Assembly: GCA_018907035.1 (NCBI GenBank)
Contig: JACCIC010000362.1
Span: 82,001 to 146,000, forward strand
DNA from: Sycobia sp. Sy_11
Lineage: Eukaryota > Arthropoda > Insecta > Hymenoptera > Epichrysomallidae
Length of the DNA stretch: 64,000 nt
Reading direction: 5' to 3'
The translations under genes were made by a program, and so were the position numbers. The stretch's first letter is position 1. Every line of letters starts with the position of its first letter. Positions 14,750 through 58,793 of the stretch are shown here, in pieces. The notes below the pieces were generated by a model, which was not told the origin of the DNA, searched no databases, and saw nothing but the letters and a program-made list of their open reading frames with translations.

Positions 14750-16027
14750 GAGTGTGAATAAGTCTTTCCCGTTTTTTGTAAGAGATGGCGCCACCAATAC
14801 TGTGCGAGTATTCAATGGTTACATATGTCATAATCAAAGCTTATTCATATGTCAACAATTCCATACTAACACATTAGTTAAAATTTTTTCGCATCATAAA
14901 TTTTTGATATCGTGAAAATGTCGAAATTTGAGCCGAGTCGACGTCATTTGCGGGAAATTTCACTTTATTGGTTCAATTTGAAGAAATCTGCTGCCGAGAC
15001 GCATCGATTGCTTCAGGAGGCTTATGGAGAAGGTTGTGTCGATGATTCAAGTGTTCGCGGATGGTTTCGACGCTTCAAAAGCGGTGATTTCGACGTGGAA
15101 GACAAGGAGCGTTCCGGGCGGCCGCAAATCTCTGAAGATTGAGAATTGTTGTCTTTGCTTGATGAAAATTCTTGTCAAACGCAAGAAGAACTTGCTGAAG
15201 CATTGGGAGTTGACCGAACAACCATTTCCAAGCGTTTGAAAGCCATGGGAATGATCCAAAAGCCAGGAAATTGGGTGCCGTACGAACTGAAGCTGAGAGA
15301 CGTCGAACGGCGTTTTTTCACTTGCGAACAGCTGCTTCAGCGACATAAAAGAAATGGTTTTCTGCATCGTATCGTGACTGGCGATGAAAAGTGGATACGT
15401 TATGATAATCCGAAGCGAAGAAAATCATGGGGACTACCCGGCCATGCATCATCATCGACGGCCAAGCCAAATATTCATGGCGCCAAGCTCATGCTCTGTA
15501 TATGGTGGGACCAGCTAGGTGTGGTTTACTATGAGCTTCTGAAACCGAATGAAAGGATCACAGGCGAGGTCTATCGACGACAATTGATGCGTTTGAGCCG
15601 CGCACTGCGAGAAAAACGGCCACAATACTCCGACAGGCACGACAAAGTTATTTTGCAACATGACAATGCTCGTCCACATGTTGCACCGCCGGTGAAAACA
15701 TACTTAGAAACGCTCAAATGGGAAGTCCTACCCCACCCGCTGTATAGTCCAGACGTTGCTCCGTCTGATTACCATCTCTTCAGATCGATGACGCATGGCC
15801 TGGCTGACCAGCACTTCCATTCCTACGAGGAAGCCAAAAAATGGGTGGATGACTGGATAGAGGCCAAACCGGTCGAATTTTTTCGCAACGGGATTCGTAT
15901 GTTGCCAGAAAGATGGAAAAAGTTGTAGCTAGCGATGGCTAATACTTTCAATAATTCATTTGTAACCATTTTTTCATAATAAAGGCTCAAAATTTGAATA
16001 AAAACGGGAAAGACTTATTCACATACC
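14749..16027 (+). mobile_element. Full-length mariner, nearly intact
   Basis: 1279 bp, the usual size for mariner. Terminal inverted repeats: GGAGTGTGAATAAGTCTTTC at the left and, inverted, GGTATGTGAATAAGTCTTTC at the right, continuing with CCGTTTTT in both. TA precedes the left end (14747-14748); the right flank reads TGATA, so one base of the duplicated TA has probably mutated. The copy at 1-486 is nearly identical, so this family was active recently. Confidence 0.95.
14918..15928 (+). pseudogene. Mariner transposase with a single stop codon
   Basis: ATG 14918 (MSKFEP) gives a 336-codon frame ending at TAG 15926-15928, close to the ~345 residues usual for mariner. An upstream in-frame GTG at 14912 is less likely as start. 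The only lesion is TGA at 15140-15142 inside SED*ELLSLL, probably a CGA-to-TGA change. Domains in order: first helix-turn-helix (residues ~1-55), second helix-turn-helix (ALGVDRTTISKRLKAMG), WVPYEL linker, then catalytic GDEKWI, HDNARPH and PSDYH with exactly 34 residues between the second and third Asp (DD34D). The enzyme cuts and pastes the element at TA sites in the nucleus. Confidence 0.95.
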
Positions 16028-30288: not shown

Positions 30289-31476
30289 TGTAACATGAGC
30301 ACTTTGGTGAGAGCTAGTTCGTGCTCCGGCTCAACGCGCCTCGGCCCCGATTGCTCAGCACGCCATCGGGTTCTTTTCACCCCACCAAAGGCTATGTTCG
30401 ATTCGTTTTAACTTGCCTAAACGAGTGGCTCCGGCTCAACCCGCCTCGACCCCTAGTCGCTCAACGCGCCACTAGGTTCGTTTGTGCAAGATAATTCGTT
30501 TTAAATTTTTACGGTGTGTACTATACTTTGGCCCACGCTCAACACGCCTAGGCCCTTGGTCGCTCAACCCGCCACCAAGTTTGTTCTAGTACACGCCGAA
30601 CCCGCGACATCCAATTCTCACTCTCGCTCAACCCGCCAGAGTTTGAATTGAAATTTTATTTAATTTATTTGCTATTTTTAATTTTTTTTGCTTTTTGTTG
30701 CTGGATTTCGGATCTAAATAAGTTTTAATTTATTAAATAATAAACAAATTTATTTAACAAAATTTAATAAAAATAATCAACAAAATTAAATAATAATAAA
30801 CTAATAAACTATCTTATTTGTCAGCCATTTGATAGCTTAGCCGCTATTCTGACACCCGTTTTATCGCGCCATTATCCGCTGTAACAAAAATAAAAAATAT
30901 CATAAAATATATTTATTTTATGATGTACAAAACTTAAATAATTTATTCTAACTTAAATTTAACGCTCCGCATGAGCGTAATTACAAAATTTTATTTATTA
31001 TCTATTTCGTGTTCGCGTCTCGCCCCGAGTGTGCTGAGACTTGTCGCCCGCTATCGCGCCGACGACAGGTCCCCCTCGAAAAGCCAGTTTCGAGGTCGCT
31101 GGCACACTGAATTTTCGCAGTCAGTTATACCGCACTGTACCGCGCCTTAGTATTAGGCAGCGCCTGCGGCCCGAGAGCGCTCGCTCATCCTCGCCGCTGC
31201 CGGCGCTTTATCCCCGCGCCGCGCCGCGCCACGAAGCCTTCGGCGCTCCCCCTTCGCCGCGCCGCGCCGCTCGCGACTTCGCGACTTATTACAATATTAT
31301 ATTTTCTGCGCGAGACTATTGTCTTGTCGCAATATATATATATATATATTATATATATATATATATTCTTTCCTTTTCTGTGTATTACACGTTTGATTGT
31401 ATTATCTACTTATTTACATATATTGCTAATATATATTTATGTAACCATATCTATTAATATATATATGTGTGTTACA
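30289..31476 (+). mobile_element. Hairpin-rich candidate solo LTR
   Basis: Starts TGTAAC after an AT run and may end at GTTACA (31471-31476), the termini used by the other LTRs here; 1188 bp, similar to LTR A. GAGCAC/GTGCTC forms a hairpin right at the start, as in LTRs A-C. It holds the hairpin array at 30302-30650, more perfect stems at 30819-30854, 30962-30978 and 31038-31071, and a CpG-rich block (31140-31280) in AT-rich surroundings. No target duplication is evident, so the right end is uncertain. Confidence 0.45.
30302..30650 (+). other. Hairpin array 1: conserved loop, variable stems
   Basis: Seven copies of GCTCARCNCGCC occur at 30329, 30353, 30434, 30459, 30537, 30562 and 30626. Four of them are loops closed by different perfect stems: CCCGAT/ATCGGG, CCTAGT/ACTAGG, CTTGGT/ACCAAG, ACTCT/AGAGT. 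Each unit also has its own outer stem: CTTTGGTG/CACCAAAG (30302/30383), CTTGCCTAAACGA with TCGTTTGTGCAAG (30412/30478, one mismatch and one U.G), GTGTACTA/TAGTACAC (30516/30587), CAATTC/GAATTG (30612/30645). Confidence 0.8.
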
Positions 31477-33724: not shown

Positions 33725-35757
33725 ATGGATCCTAAACTGACCACCGAAGTAAAGACCTCCAACTCCAGATTAATGGAAGAAACAGAACGACTCACCAGCC
33801 TCTTTGAGGAAATGTCGTATAGGCAACTAGCACAGGAAGCCAATCGACTAAACATACGAGGCGATAGTGATCCGGCAACGCTCAGGAACCGATTAATTCG
33901 TTTCGAGCTGCGGCGCCTGTTTGATCCCGAAACAACACCATGGCAGGCAGACGTAGACGAGCTGCGACTGCCAGAAGGACATTCAGAGCTAAGCGAAATC
34001 TCAGAAATGCTAAGTTCGACTGCGCTAGAAAATAACAAAAGAAAAGCAATATCAACGGTCGTACATCGGAATACTGAGACACCTGAACAAGGTCATACTG
34101 CCGCAGCGAGACCAACCGCAACACCCAACTGGCAGCATCCCGTTATGTACATGCCAGGTGCTGCACTGCCAGTCAACGGCAACCTGCTAAACACCACCGG
34201 GCGGTCTCTAGAGAACACATACCTCAAGGCGACCCGGACAGGTACTCCGCCAATGGCGAGTACAGTTCTCAGGAGGTCCTAAAGAGAACGTTGAGGAATT
34301 CATAGATCGACTGGAGGAGACGATGGGTAGTCTTGACATCCCAGCGTCAGAGATATTAAAATTGATACCGGGCATCCTGAGCGGTACAGCGCGGATATGG
34401 GCGCGGCCAATTCATAAAACCTGGAGATCGCTCAATGATTTCAAGTCGGCATTACGTCGCCAATTCAGGCCGATTGATTACATCCTACGGTTAGAAGAGG
34501 AGCTGAGAGACCGAACACAAGGCTCAAAAGAGCCAATCAGCTCATATTTACAAGGAATGCGAGTGCTGCTTGACAAGATATCACCAGCGCTAACCCTCGA
34601 GTCCCAACTGGACAGAATATACAGAAACCTAAACCTCGACTACTTAAATAAAATCGACCGAGAAGATTTTAAATCAATCAACGACCTACAGCTGCTAGGA
34701 CAGTGCCTTGAACTAAAGAAGGAATTAACTCGACGGTACAAAGAACCACCTGCAGCAGAAGACTGTATGGCAAGTACGGCAGCATGCACACCATCAGAGA
34801 GATGTAGCTGACGTTTTCGAGGTTAGCCGCACTAGCCAGCGAAAAAGTACTAGATACGCAGAAGCACGTGACGCTGGTCGAACCGTTAGCGTCAATACTG
34901 ACTAATTCAGATAAAAAACCACGGCACTACAGCCCAGTAGCTCGTAGCACACGTACACCATCACCAGAGTCACAAGGGTGAAACGCGATTCGACAACGGA
35001 CCTCACCAGCAAGACAACTATCATCACCCTAGCGTAACCGTACACCCCCACCATCCACCAGATACAGATCCCATTCACCATACCGAAATAGCTACAGCGC
35101 CAAACGCCCCTACCGAAGCCCCTCACGTAATCACAGCTCCGATCGACATAACTATGACAGGAGCCGAGGAGGTCGGTCACAAACACCAGAATACCGGCGC
35201 GAATGACCAAGCCGTGAAGATTACAAAGAATGACCCTCGTATCACCCAGATCGGCGATCACCGAACTGACAAAAATACATAAACGCGAGCGTGGCGTATT
35301 CCAGAGACCGACAATCCCCTGATCGTGACTCGCGTACATCGTACAGCAGAGATAGAAGTGATAGCATGTCAAGTAGACGTGAGGACAATAGGCCCTGCTG
35401 GACATGTAAGAAAACGGGACATTGGGCAGATAGATGCCTAATCTAATGCTAAAGCGCAGCAGACGCTTCTGCTACCAGTGCGGCAGAGATGCATACGACG
35501 TGCTGTCGTGCACATATTGCCCAAGACGTTATACGCCTGACGTATCGTCTTGGAAGGGGGAAGTTCCTGCGGACACTGAGGCAAAGACGACACGACAGGC
35601 GTCTGAAAAGACAGATACGGGAGTTACGGCGCAGCAGAGAAGCGCGCAGCCAGCGGACCCAAATATGATGGCACAAGTCATGCAACAGGTCACTGGCATC
35701 TTCGGTAATGGCCAGCAGCCAATAATGATAGAGCTGCCATTCTACATGAACAAATAG
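33725..35757 (+). pseudogene. Gag of element AB (frameshifted)
   Basis: ATG 33725 has a good Kozak context (AAAACCATGG). Residues ~20-65 form a SAP-like helical motif (SLFEEMSYRQLAQEANRLNI...LRNRLIRFELRRLF). After a frameshift near 34230 the capsid-like part follows (QFSGGPKENVEEFIDRLEE, IPGILSGTARIWARP, SYLQGMRVLLDKIS), open to a TAG at 34809. A degraded Ser/Arg-rich stretch lies around 35060-35390. Then come a perfect zinc knuckle CWTCKKTGHWADRC (35398-35437) and, in another frame (35434-35757), a second knuckle-like CYQCGRDAYDVLSC with Tyr for His. It packages element RNA in intact relatives. No pol follows. Confidence 0.8.
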
Positions 35758-40732: not shown

Positions 40733-41093
40733 GAATTGCAGACGTGGTAAAAACACAATCTAATTACAACAATAATTGGCATAAACACTTAATCTGAGCC
40801 GCGAAGTAATTTTCCAATCTTTAAAAGCTATGGGAAAGATACAGAAGTATAGAAAATAGGTATCCCGGCAAGTAACAGATGGAAAATCGAAAAACTGTTT
40901 CTGAAATGCTGATTCACTGTTTCCAACAAAATCTTTTTTGTATCGAATTGCCAAGAGGGATGAAAAAGACTTCCTTTGAGAACTCAAAACGAAGATTTTC
41001 ATGGCTCTTAAATAATTAAGCGAGCTCATCGACTGCAAGGACAAAAAGTTTAGTGGTATCAACGTAGTATGTTGTACTATTGCGACGGCCAAA
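40733..41093 (+). pseudogene. Mariner, left part (split by an insertion)
   Basis: EDGELQ, then VIFQSLKAMGKIQKYRK (second helix-turn-helix), FLYRIAKRDEKDFL (first Asp region) and, shifted, ENSKRRFSWLL and MLYYCDGQK, the position of MLCIWWDQK in intact copies. The relic stops here and resumes at about 42641 with HYELLK. Confidence 0.6.
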
Positions 41094-42640
41094 AACATGG
41101 CCGCGCAAATTCATTTCGAACAGAGAATTTATTACACGCATTAAAATTTAAATGCTTAAGATGGTGTTACATCTAATTTAGTGGATGTATTTTACATACA
41201 TACATGGACTTAGATGTATAAACGCCACAAGAAATAATATCGAATATCATTAGAAATAATATATTAAATATATTATTTCTACAATTATAAAGTTAAAACT
41301 CGCGTATACACCGAATAAACACCGAAAACCGGGCAAAGGTCGCGACGACTACTGGAGAACGTAGTCGTCGCAACTGCCGAAACTCGAACAAATAGAGAGA
41401 GAACGCGATATCTAGTCTCTCTCTCTACCACTAAGTTAAGTACAGAGTATGCCGTAGAGGGGATACACTGCGCGCGGCAAGAGAGAGCGCGTTCAATGTA
41501 TTAGACCGGCGGCCGCTATCCCCTCTAATACGTGCCGCACGCACACTACTGCACGCTCTCACTAAACAGCCTGAGCCGCAACGAATGTGGCGAACGCGCG
41601 AATTCCAGTATATACAACGGGTGTCCGAAAACGAATGCACCCGCTCTATTTAATTAAATTCATTAATACAAACGACTTAATGTACGCATGATATATAAAT
41701 ATATGTATATAAATGTTAAACTTGTATACATGTATATTATTACTGTGCACAGCACACCGGCTGCAAATAATAACAAAATATAAAGCAATAATTATTATAA
41801 TTATTATCGATTATTATTATTATTGTAATTATTATTATTGTTAATATAATTATTATAATTCGGCGCCTCGTCCGAAATTAAACGAGTGGCCACGAAATTA
41901 TCCGATTATTTTATTATAAAAGGGCCTGCAAAAGGCAAAATCGACAGTTCGCCCGGTGAACCAACTGCCCCGAAGTTGTTTCACACGAACTCCTCCCGGA
42001 GCTAGAACCTTTCCAGAGCTCGAATTAATCTTGACTTTTAAAAATCCTCTCCGAAATTATTAACTTGATCTCTGTTGCGAGGCGCTTCTCAAAAGACAGA
42101 CGGTTAATAATTTTACCTTTCCTAAGTAAACGTGATCCTGGTTGCGAGGCGCTCCTCAAAAGACCAGCAGTTTACTTATCCCGACTAGAAACTCTCCCGT
42201 TAGCTCTTGATACTGGTTGCGAGGCGCTCCTCAAAAGACCAGCGGAGTTAAGTTCTCCTTATTTTTTATACCATTTAAAATCAACCTGTCTCGTTTCATT
42301 AGGAAAATAACATCGGTTATTCATGCAGTAATTAGCGCCGAATATTAGAGACATTGCGGAAAATAGCGCAAAATTAGTTAAAATAAATATATAGATCTAG
42401 CTATAGATTACCGTTATTAATTATTTTTGTGTTTATATTTATTTGTTACAGAATCCTGTAGATAGAGGAACTGGCTTATTTTCACAAATAAATTAATATT
42501 TTTGTTATAAAAAATTATACTGTGTTCTTGTAAAATTATTTTCCTGAAATCGCCGTCCGATCCCGAAAAACTTCCTCCCCACTCAAACTACCCTGGGAAG
42601 ATACCGCGTAGGCTATCCCGAGGGGGTCAGGAACGTTACA
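41094..42640 (+). mobile_element. Hairpin-rich insertion inside a mariner
   Basis: About 1.55 kb separates two adjacent halves of one mariner transposase. It ends GTTACA, like the LTRs here, has AATAAATTAAT near 42487 (poly(A)-like) and a GC-richer left part. No open frame is convincing. Perfect stems: GCGACGACTAC/GTAGTCGTCGC (41342/41361), TAGAGGGGATA/TATCCCCTCTA (41455/41517), CTCGT/ACGAG (41867/41882), GTTCG/CGAAC enclosing GTGAACCAACT/AGTTGTTTCAC with one mismatch (41947-41990), and array 2. Solo LTR is the favoured reading; the left end is not defined by TGTAAC. Confidence 0.5.
42054..42251 (+). other. Hairpin array 2: conserved 20-nt loop, variable stems
   Basis: Three units. The loop TGCGAGGCGCTYCTCAAAAG (42076, 42143, 42218) is closed by TCTGT/ACAGA, CTGGT/ACCAG and CTGGT/ACCAG. 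Outer stems are all different: AAATTATTAAC/GTTAATAATTT (42054/42103), TAAGTAAAC/GTTTACTTA (42123/42170), TTAGCTC/GAGTTAA with one G.U (42200/42245). A (T/G)TGAT(C/A) linker and a C(G/A) spacer are also conserved. Confidence 0.85.
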
Positions 42641-43085
42641 CTATGAATTATTAAAACTTGCTGAAACGGTAAATAAGGATTGCTAGCAATAATAAATTAA
42701 TAATTTGAATCATACGTTGATTGAAGAATGGCAGCAATAGCTCGAAGACATGGTAAAGTTGTACTGTAGCATGACAACGTATCGTCCGATACCTGTAAAC
42801 CGAAAAAGAATACATTGAAAGCAGTTAATTAGGAAGTGTCATTACAGTTGCCCTAATCTCCAGACCTTGACCTGTCCGAATATTACTTCTTCGCATCGAT
42901 GGGACAATCACTTGTAGAGCACTGTTTCGCACATTTTGAAGAAGTCGAAAAATAGAATGTTTTGCCTCGACAGAGAAATGTTTTTATGAAATGTTATCTA
43001 GAAATATGAGCGAAATGTGTAAAATCCAATAGTTAATACTTTTAGGAAAAAACTACGAGAGTCAACTAGAAACTAACTACTTTGC
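42641..43085 (+). pseudogene. Mariner, right part (split by an insertion)
   Basis: Starts with CACTATGAATTATTAAAAC (HYELLK) and continues through LEDMVKLYCSMTTYRP (in place of HGKVVLLHDN) and, shifted, a PNLQTLTCPNIT / SPDL region and a WDNHL stretch. Heavily decayed. Together with 40733-41093 it forms one mariner interrupted by the hairpin-rich insertion. Confidence 0.6.
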
Positions 43086-57267: not shown

Positions 57268-58479
57268 ATGGCCAAAAGGTCAATATCTCCCTACTTTAAA
57301 ACACCGTCGATTCCGATCGACCAGTGGTGTTTATATCTAGCTGAAGGTGAAGTTCACGATTACCTCCATCAGCTGTCTGTGCAAGAGATGGTACTATTTT
57401 TGAGCGGCTTGCTCTTGAATAAAATCCTGCCGGCGGGAGAAGTACCACTGGGACGTACAACGTGGGTGGAACATATTATAGATGCAGGAGATGCTCGCCC
57501 TATACATCAAAAGGCATGTCCAATCTCTATGAACATATAAGAAGTGATGCATTCTCAAGTTAGAGAAATGCTAGAGAGTGGAGTAGTCGAACTGTCCACA
57601 ACTCGATGGTCGAGCCCAGTGGTGATGGTACTTAAAAGCAACGGGAAATATAGATTTTACATGGACTTTCGAAAAGTTAATTTAGTTTCGAAACCTAATG
57701 TATACTCGTTACCTAACATGGACCAGATTCTAAGGAAGCTACAATCAGCTAGATATATTTCTACCTTAGATCTGAGTAGTGCGTACCATCAAATACCATT
57801 TCATCTGGAATCCAAACCGATAATGACAATTACGGTACCTGTAATGGGATTATCCCAGTTTACCAGGAAGCTCTTCGGTCTATTTAACGCTGGAGCGTCG
57901 AGCCGAATGCCTTCTCATATCTTGACGATATTATCATCGCCACAGAGACATTCGCAGAACACTTAGACTGGATATGTCGTGTTCTTGCTCGAGTACATGA
58001 AGCTCGACTCACGATCAATCGAGAAAAGAGTGTCTTCGGACAACCCGAAGTCAAGTATTTAGGTGTTCTCGTGAATCGTGAGAGATTTCGTTTCGATCCT
58101 GACAAGATCGAACCAGTGATGCGTTACACGGAACCGAGAAACCTGAAGCAACTTAGACGTTTTCTCGGGATGGGATCGTGGTATAGGAAATTTCTAAAAG
58201 ATTTCGCTACCATCGCCGAACCACTCACACGCCTAACTAGAAAGGACTGTCGTTATGAGTAGACCGAGGAATAACAAGCCTCTTTTGATAAGATCAAATC
58301 AATGATCGCTTCGGCACCCGTCCTGCATAGACCGCCGTTTGATATCCAGTTTACCGTACAAACAGATGCAAGTTATACTGGTATCGGAGCGGTCCTTACA
58401 CAGGAAATCGCAGGACAAGAACCGGTGTTGGAGTTCGCGAGTAGAACACTCTCCCATGCTGAAAGAAACTATTCTGTAG

Positions 58480-58516
<37 letters not shown>

Positions 58517-58793
58517 CTTAGCTGTCATATGGGCTATTGATAAGTTCCGTCCTTATATAGATGGATATCATTTCCGTGTCATTATGGACCACAGCAGTTT
58601 AAAGTGGATTCATACGATGCACAACCCAACTGGCAGACTCGCACGATGGACTCTAAGATTGCAAGGGCAAAGTTTCGATGTAGAGCATCGTAAAGGGACT
58701 TTGAACAACGTGCCAGACGCCCTTTCTAGGATGTCCGAAGGAGATGATCTATCTTGCTCAATTTTGAACATGGGTAAGAGATACCCAGGATGA
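57268..58793 (+). pseudogene. Element D pol: reverse transcriptase and RNase H
   Basis: Frame 1 (57268-57966) has GRTTWVEHIIDAGDARP, an in-frame TAA at 57538, then RT: SPVVMVLKSNGKYRFYMDFR, motif A YISTLDLSSAYHQIP, motif B relic LFGLFNAGAS. A frameshift near 57900 leads to SYLDDIIIAT (catalytic YxDD) and KYLGVLV, LRRFLGMGSWYRKFLKDF in frame 3, with stops at 58260 and 58272. RNase H follows at 58302: QTDASYTGIGAVLTQ, then AERERERERERECLAVIWAI, where a GA microsatellite has added ~4 Glu-Arg pairs next to the active-site Glu, and VIMDHSSLKWI. It ends KGTLNNVPDALSRM. Confidence 0.9.

Follow-up and report, generated by a model that had tools for sequence, protein, structure and literature searches.

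A tandem array of hairpins with a constant core in the LTR of a Ty3/gypsy retrotransposon of Sycobia sp., a candidate packaging signal of the leader RNA

Results

A solo LTR of a Ty3/gypsy retrotransposon

We analysed a stretch of 64,000 nucleotides from Sycobia sp. Sy_11 (contig JACCIC010000362.1, positions 82,001 to 146,000), here called the window; positions are counted from its first letter. The organism's own genome (621 Mb in 472 contigs) was searched at the DNA level, and the best 40 of 1444 first-look candidates were 94–100% identical. Among 30 fetched loci, the common stretch mostly ended at 41081 and 42640, with TG...CA ends. A perfect 4-bp target-site duplication was present in 14 of these 30 copies, the window copy among them. 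The element and its borders are:

41081..42640, plus strand: solo LTR of a Ty3/gypsy retrotransposon, 1560 bp, TG...CA ends, boundaries taken from 30 copies
41077..41080, no strand: left target-site duplication, CTAT, read from the sequence
42641..42644, no strand: right target-site duplication, CTAT, read from the sequence

A primer binding site (PBS), TGGCGCCCGAACAGGGAC with at most one change, lay directly 3' of the LTR in four of the 30 copies (L002, L008, L027 and L028), and in L021 the PBS was cut. A polypurine tract, AAAGGAGGGAGA with at most one change, lay directly 5' of the LTR in four copies (L010, L014, L021 and L025). Pieces of one copy encoded reverse transcriptase (RT), RNase H and the zinc-binding and core domains of integrase, and pieces of another encoded Retrotrans_gag and an aspartyl protease (Pfam). 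Gag, protease, RT, RNase H and integrase followed each other in the expected order, as judged from the coordinates of separate pieces of two copies. Because of the LTR ends, the duplication, the PBS, the polypurine tract and the gag-to-integrase domains, we conclude that the window element is a solo LTR of a Ty3/gypsy retrotransposon. Three of the 26 protein matches of the integrase were named relatives, from Trichogramma kaykai (56%), Formica exsecta (46%) and Drosophila kikkawai (37%). The LTR had no match among plasmids and the RNase H no relative among viral contigs.

Elsewhere in the window, a Pfam scan of 10 of the 49 listed open reading frames found Transposase_1 at 15146-15925 (plus strand), which we take to be mariner-type, a retrotransposon gag at 34323-34808 (plus strand) and an RT RNase H fragment at 58302-58790 (plus strand).

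Three hairpin units with a common core

Inside the LTR lies a tandem array of three hairpins, whose coordinates and letters (42054..42251), as given by an earlier sequence-only reading, were correct when the sequence was read again. Its units are as follows, with scores under model R1 (see below), which was built from 12 units that include all three:

42054..42113, plus strand: hairpin unit 1, with 11-bp outer stem, 6/2 linker, inner stem TCTGT/ACAGA and core; 75.1 bits (42058-42109)
42123..42178, plus strand: hairpin unit 2, with 9-bp outer stem, inner stem CTGGT/ACCAG and core; 79.0 bits (42125-42176)
42200..42251, plus strand: hairpin unit 3, with 7-bp outer stem including one G.U, inner stem CTGGT/ACCAG and core; 76.7 bits

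Each unit runs through an outer stem, a 5' linker, a 5-bp inner stem, the 20-nt core TGCGAGGCGCTYCTCAAAAG, the inner stem, a 3' linker and the outer stem. The common 20-mer GCGAGGCGCTYCTCAAAAG occurred three times in the window (at most three mismatches), against a mean of 0.00 in 100 shuffles, and the three cores were present in all 30 fetched loci (at most four substitutions allowed). The inner stems pair as first read, and the TTGATC-like linker reported earlier was borne out as a 6-nt K-TGAT-M on the 5' side; linker lengths are constant, the 3' side having 2 nt (CR). The outer stems also pair as claimed, with 11 bp (AAATTATTAAC/GTTAATAATTT), 9 bp (TAAGTAAAC/GTTTACTTA) and 7 bp (TTAGCTC/GAGTTAA, one G.U). 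They are unrelated in sequence among the three kinds of unit, yet pair at the same register.

The sequence-only reading described the core as a 20-nt loop and proposed that unpaired parts are constant and paired parts free to vary. The conservation of the core was confirmed, but it is not single-stranded throughout: GAGG/CYYC is predicted to pair inside it as a 4-bp helix, with a CGCU tetraloop and an asymmetric UGC/AAAAG internal loop. The rule that unpaired parts are constant is therefore only partly right, because this constant helix lies within the loop.

Position of the array in the predicted leader

The placement of the array inside the LTR, on the sense strand and downstream of a predicted promoter, was absent from the sequence-only reading. 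It depends on the following features:

41915..41922, plus strand: TATAAAAG, presumably a TATA box; TTATAAAAG (41914-41922) intact in 23 of 30 copies; start of R predicted at ~41945
42382..42387, plus strand: AATAAA, possible poly(A) signal, intact in 25 of 30 copies
42487..42492, plus strand: AATAAA, likely poly(A) signal, intact in 27 of 30 copies and followed by a GT-rich stretch (42521-42531)

The position of the PBS makes the plus strand the sense strand. Since the array lies between the predicted start and the likely poly(A) signal at 42487-42492, it is probably part of R; the transcription start near 41945, its exact position and the poly(A)/cleavage site are predictions from the sequence. 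The array would thus lie in the 5' leader of the genomic RNA and again in the 3' UTR. Upstream of the TATA box, the conserved U3 of the same LTR holds inverted repeats at 41339-41374 (from a computed search) and at 41394-41426 and 41455-41527 (both found by eye), which would be transcribed within the 3' UTR.

In U3, the number of ATGs was 15, against 15.2 expected, and thus showed no depletion. From 41945 to the end of the LTR, the window copy has a single ATG (42323), against ~6.8 expected. Fixed-length slices were free of any ATG in 17 of the 30 copies, some slices overrunning a cut LTR or the contig end. The gag start lay 377–379 nt past the LTR in four of four copies, and given the predicted start the array would occupy the location of a psi-type signal, in the 5' leader upstream of gag. 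In these four copies, the leader of ~1.08 kb from the predicted start to gag held 1–3 ATGs, against 10.8–12.7 expected; ATGs between PBS and gag were present in L002 and L028. In 27 related arrays with their near flanks, which are not independent copies, we counted 15 ATGs (four of them in L060 alone), against 117 expected.

This AUG-poor stretch leads us to read the leader as scanned by ribosomes from a start near 41945. A predicted leader that is long, hairpin-bearing and AUG-poor could also suggest translation control by the hairpins, as a ribosome shunt, an internal entry site or a scanning brake. We consider this very unlikely, since the loss of AUGs across the whole leader points to ordinary scanning, whereas internal entry would be expected to tolerate upstream AUGs.

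Related units and covariation

A search of the same genome with the integrase piece listed 152 matches (100–56% identity) of 6210 first-look candidates. As relatives, we sampled the 4 kb downstream of 40 integrase matches, chosen across the identity range. Model R1, built on 12 units of the window's family, found 88 units in 27 of these 40 loci (E up to 0.01), in arrays of two to five. When a script assigned each unit to the nearest kind, the arrays had the forms 1-2-3, 1-2-1-2-3 and others. Similarity to the LTR was seen in all 12 unit-bearing loci among the first 20. Of the eight loci without units in this set, six lacked LTR similarity at the limit used, L039 matched only to the end of the locus, and L048 matched LTR positions 41316-41714 and then departed, so that part of the LTR was kept and no unit. 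Among the second 20 loci, R1 found no units in L054, L057, L058, L068 and L070 (E up to 0.01). L051 has its array and its integrase match on different strands, and we treat this array as a separate insertion.

The 88 units were aligned (alignment A4; 69 distinct rows, all from one genome, many from decayed copies). In this alignment, 91.9% of the 1087 base-pair cells paired, against 72.4% after shuffling; as A4 was fitted to the model, it leans towards structure. Double-change cells numbered 219 (shuffled mean 79.9), and the covariation score was 0.483 (0.170 shuffled; 0.036–0.147 with slid partners), values that kinship of the sequences can inflate relative to shuffles. Ten of the 16 pairs in A4 showed a double change and 26 further pair types were counted, neither figure being above shuffles, so that three of five measures (paired cells, double-change cells and score) exceeded the shuffles and two did not.

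Loop columns were 94–100% one letter over the 88 units, and stem columns differed among the kinds of unit. Part of the covariation signal is this difference among kinds, and further paired changes occurred within them. At pair 6 of unit 1, A-U was exchanged for G-C (TATTAAC/GTTAATA in nine and TATTAGC/GCTAATA in 11 intact stems), and at pair 4 of unit 2 a paired change from A-U to G-C was found. Five copies of unit 2 had the 3' arm GTTCTCT; one of them paired perfectly (AGAGAAC), three had one or two mismatches and one had a gap. Leaving L071 aside, we compared ten of the eleven arrays of the form 1-2-3 with the window: loops were 90–98% identical, inner stems 97–100%, linkers 83–96%, outer stems 81–100% and spacers 74–97%, and the units were without gaps.

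These results support the earlier proposal of a structured RNA. Homologous units with broken stems, or with loops drifting as fast as stems, would speak against it, and the 88 units taken together displayed neither. The same proposal had named a protein-bound hairpin as an option, and protein-binding sites at the DNA level in the transcribed LTR, with incidental stems, would account for a conserved 20-mer near the promoter at fairly regular spacing (mostly 66–83 nt). We give such sites very little credence, because neither the pairing of unrelated stems at a fixed register nor paired substitutions in inner and outer stems are expected of duplex DNA.

Constraint among close copies

Among the 30 close copies, private substitutions amounted to 0.17–0.39 per site in every class, both within the array and in the flanks near it. 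They were similar across classes, as expected of decay after insertion. Inherited substitutions, defined as present in at least two copies, were seen at 18 of the 155 sites in flanks and spacers, compared with five of the 156 unit sites (p 0.005) and none of the 60 loop sites (p 0.004), in copies that were selected by similarity over 41990-42300, with the compared flanks inside the same query. Three of the five inherited unit changes are single events, since they were found only in L002 and L005, which are LTRs of the same element; this correction was considered for unit sites only. Indels affected 0 of 156 unit positions, against 16 of 155 flank and spacer positions.

A tandem repeat without function, its stems inherited by descent, would be compatible with the varying number of units, which looks like gain and loss of the 1-2 pair. 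The little variation of U3 at 41160-41640 also means that low variation is not special to the array. We nevertheless regard lack of function as scarcely credible: the outer stems of the three kinds pair in register despite their unrelated sequences, and units have fewer inherited changes and indels than flanks, with private mutations at similar levels in both.

A second type of array in a sister family

The window contains another hairpin array, probably the first one to which the title of the sequence-only reading alludes. We call it type-1, the array described above being type-2:

30329-30637, minus strand: type-1 hairpin array of a sister Ty3/gypsy family, seven cores GGCGNGYTGAGC on varying stems
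L074 996-1306, L052 767-1077 and L051 2939-3247 (minus strand): type-1 array in other copies

In a simple test, five of the seven type-1 hairpins of the window had stems of 5–6 bp and two had only 3 bp. The same seven hairpins were found in L074, in a terminal repeat common with the 3' end of L052 (1118 nt, 99.4%). This repeat ends at GTTACA, directly before TGGCGCCCGAACAGG. The type-1 array resembles type-2 in that its hairpins set a conserved loop on stems that vary, and in its place in the LTR, shortly before a PBS that is nearly identical; unlike type-2, it has an unrelated loop, and its hairpins mostly stand in close pairs. R1 did not match the type-1 array. We conclude from the seven type-1 hairpins in the L074/L052 terminal repeat that the LTR part of the leader carries hairpin arrays of unrelated kinds in sister families.

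The window's own family carries a type-1 hairpin pair between PBS and gag (L008 2325-2361, L002 2318-2354 and L027 956-992, the last on the minus strand). In L002, the pair is enclosed by an outer stem, TTTCGATTTGT/ACAAATCGAAA, found by eye. Type-1-like cores also occur in L015 at 439-655, two of which differ in their first letter (CGCGAGTTGAGC); they stand on new stems, outside the LTR and on its other strand, and are perhaps from a third family.

Predicted folding

Folded alone, units 1 and 2 (z −2.99 and −3.77) were more stable than their shuffles, but unit 3, taken together with its flank, was not (z +0.08; 95 of 200 shuffles folded as well). In folds of the whole region of six hand-picked arrays, the outer stem had a probability above 0.5 in 13 of 24 units. 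The minus strand folded worse, with 0.00 for the inner and apical helices of all three units and 0.74 for the outer stem of one. Wobble pairs were rejected as a strand test: among distinct rows, departures to G.U and to A.C were equal (36 each, excluding 15 G.U at one mostly inherited pair), which leaves wobble uninformative about the strand.

When 566 nt of the window copy were folded, pairing of unit 2 with unit 3 was favoured by ~6 kcal/mol of 130, with an exchange of strands of 22 nt each. This prediction would suit a function in dimerisation or genome cyclisation, in which identical hairpins would make kissing contacts or open to form inter-unit duplexes, either inside one RNA or across two. 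The core has GCGC at its centre, and palindromic leader sequences start dimers in Ty3 and retroviruses (PMC11381356 and PMC5874298). A dimerisation initiation site has a 6-nt apical palindrome, and in the core we found GCGC only, 4 nt that overlap the closing pair; self-complementarity of the core was ordinary among shuffles. Matches of at least 5 nt between the core and the type-1 loop arose in ~10% of 5000 shuffles. Kissing through the GCGC palindrome or between type-1 and type-2 loops was thus rejected as not above shuffles. The inner stems of units 1 and 2 also differ, and we judge dimerisation or cyclisation a distinctly improbable function of the array.

Discussion

We are highly confident of the structure and place of the array. 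Related copies keep the hairpin shape and the letters of the core, and the array is therefore probably a docking signal on the element RNA. A constant core on free stems, in several copies and in the leader upstream of gag, fits a protein-read tag. The best explanation in our view, tentatively preferred, is a cis-acting, multi-copy, protein-read RNA element of R and the 5' leader, most likely a packaging signal for Gag; the packaging function itself we put forward with reserve.

Each unit would display one recognition surface, made of the UGAU/CR internal loop, two fixed pairs, the UGC/AAAAG internal loop and the GAGG-CGCU-CYYC cap, and would carry it on freely changeable stems. Tandem units may bind several copies of one protein. 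The element's own Gag would be the simplest and most likely reader, and the array would then label the RNA as one to be packaged and perhaps also to form dimers. A zinc-knuckle-like motif, C-x2-C-x4-H-x4-C, is visible by eye in the gag frame, in which Pfam reports no CCHC knuckle family (E up to 1). Against packaging, hairpins located in R would also mark any spliced RNA.

Alternatively, a host RNA-binding protein might bind the hairpins so that unspliced RNA is exported from the nucleus, stabilised or localised, a role filled in some retroviruses by constitutive transport elements, whose internal loops bind NXF1. The same conserved structure and multi-copy form would serve such a protein, the location in R would put hairpins at both ends of the RNA, 3' UTR included, and the AAAAGAC strand, judged by eye, loosely resembles AAGACA, a motif of transport elements. 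AAGACA is found only in unit 1, however, units 2 and 3 having AAGACC, and the array is without an Rfam match; we hold a host reader to be unlikely. In Rfam searches, 40900-43000 gave two weak matches, both below gathering scores and off the array, and the whole window gave none at gathering scores. The type-2 core had no exact match in viral contigs. Readings as ribozyme, SECIS or K-turn were dropped for want of matching core letters, weighed from recall and with Rfam as the tool test.

The Ty3/gypsy families of this genome may carry interchangeable tandem hairpin arrays as multivalent recognition tags: type-2 in R with a type-1 pair after the PBS in one family, and seven type-1 hairpins in the LTR of its sister. 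The loop would be the code and the stems free, array length would change by gain and loss of unit pairs, and each family would have its own RNA-protein address. We offer this generalization as a possibility of which we are doubtful. Sister families with two unrelated hairpin arrays in their LTR leaders would reveal how signals of this kind turn over. To our knowledge, packaging sequences of animal Ty3/gypsy elements are known even less well than those of Ty3, and the short, repeated, covarying unit is a concrete RNA for testing.

Comparison with known systems

The Drosophila gypsy element has an array of Su(Hw) insulator sites, bound as duplex DNA, in its transcribed 5' region. Ours is similar in that an insect Ty3/gypsy element carries a number of conserved sites in the 5' part that is transcribed; it differs in having paired stems with compensating changes. 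HIV-1 SL1 has a purine-rich internal loop, and the units share this feature as well as a GC palindrome at the cap. The palindrome of SL1 is 6 nt long and lies in the apical loop (PMC5874298), whereas the units have one of 4 nt, which overlaps the closing pair and shows no enrichment relative to shuffles.

A literature search outside which most subscription papers fell brought up no account of tandem hairpins in the LTR of an insect element, so that absence is not proven; the accessible part of PMC12992720 contained no mention of 'leader' or 'RNA structure'. Localisation and packaging of yeast Ty3 RNA depend on UTR or POL sequence, and which sequences packaging requires is said not to be defined precisely (PMC4974528 and PMC11381356, in the parts available). 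The Sycobia element resembles Ty1 and Ty3, as far as these parts describe them, in a cis-acting structured 5' end of LTR-retrotransposon RNA, but they describe palindromes and no tandem hairpin array (PMC4974528, PMC11381356). The primer also differs, being initiator tRNA-Met in Ty1/Ty3, and the PBS here is TGGCGCCCGAACAGGGAC.

In murine leukaemia virus, the GACG hairpin pair of psi lies downstream of the LTR, whereas the present array, a candidate Gag signal judged by its sequence, lies inside the LTR. That pair, SL-C and SL-D with their GACG tetraloops (PMC5874298), is like our array in that hairpins with the same apical loop recur within the 5' part of the RNA of an LTR element. Unlike that pair, the Sycobia array has another loop, a larger structured core with two internal loops, and two to five units.
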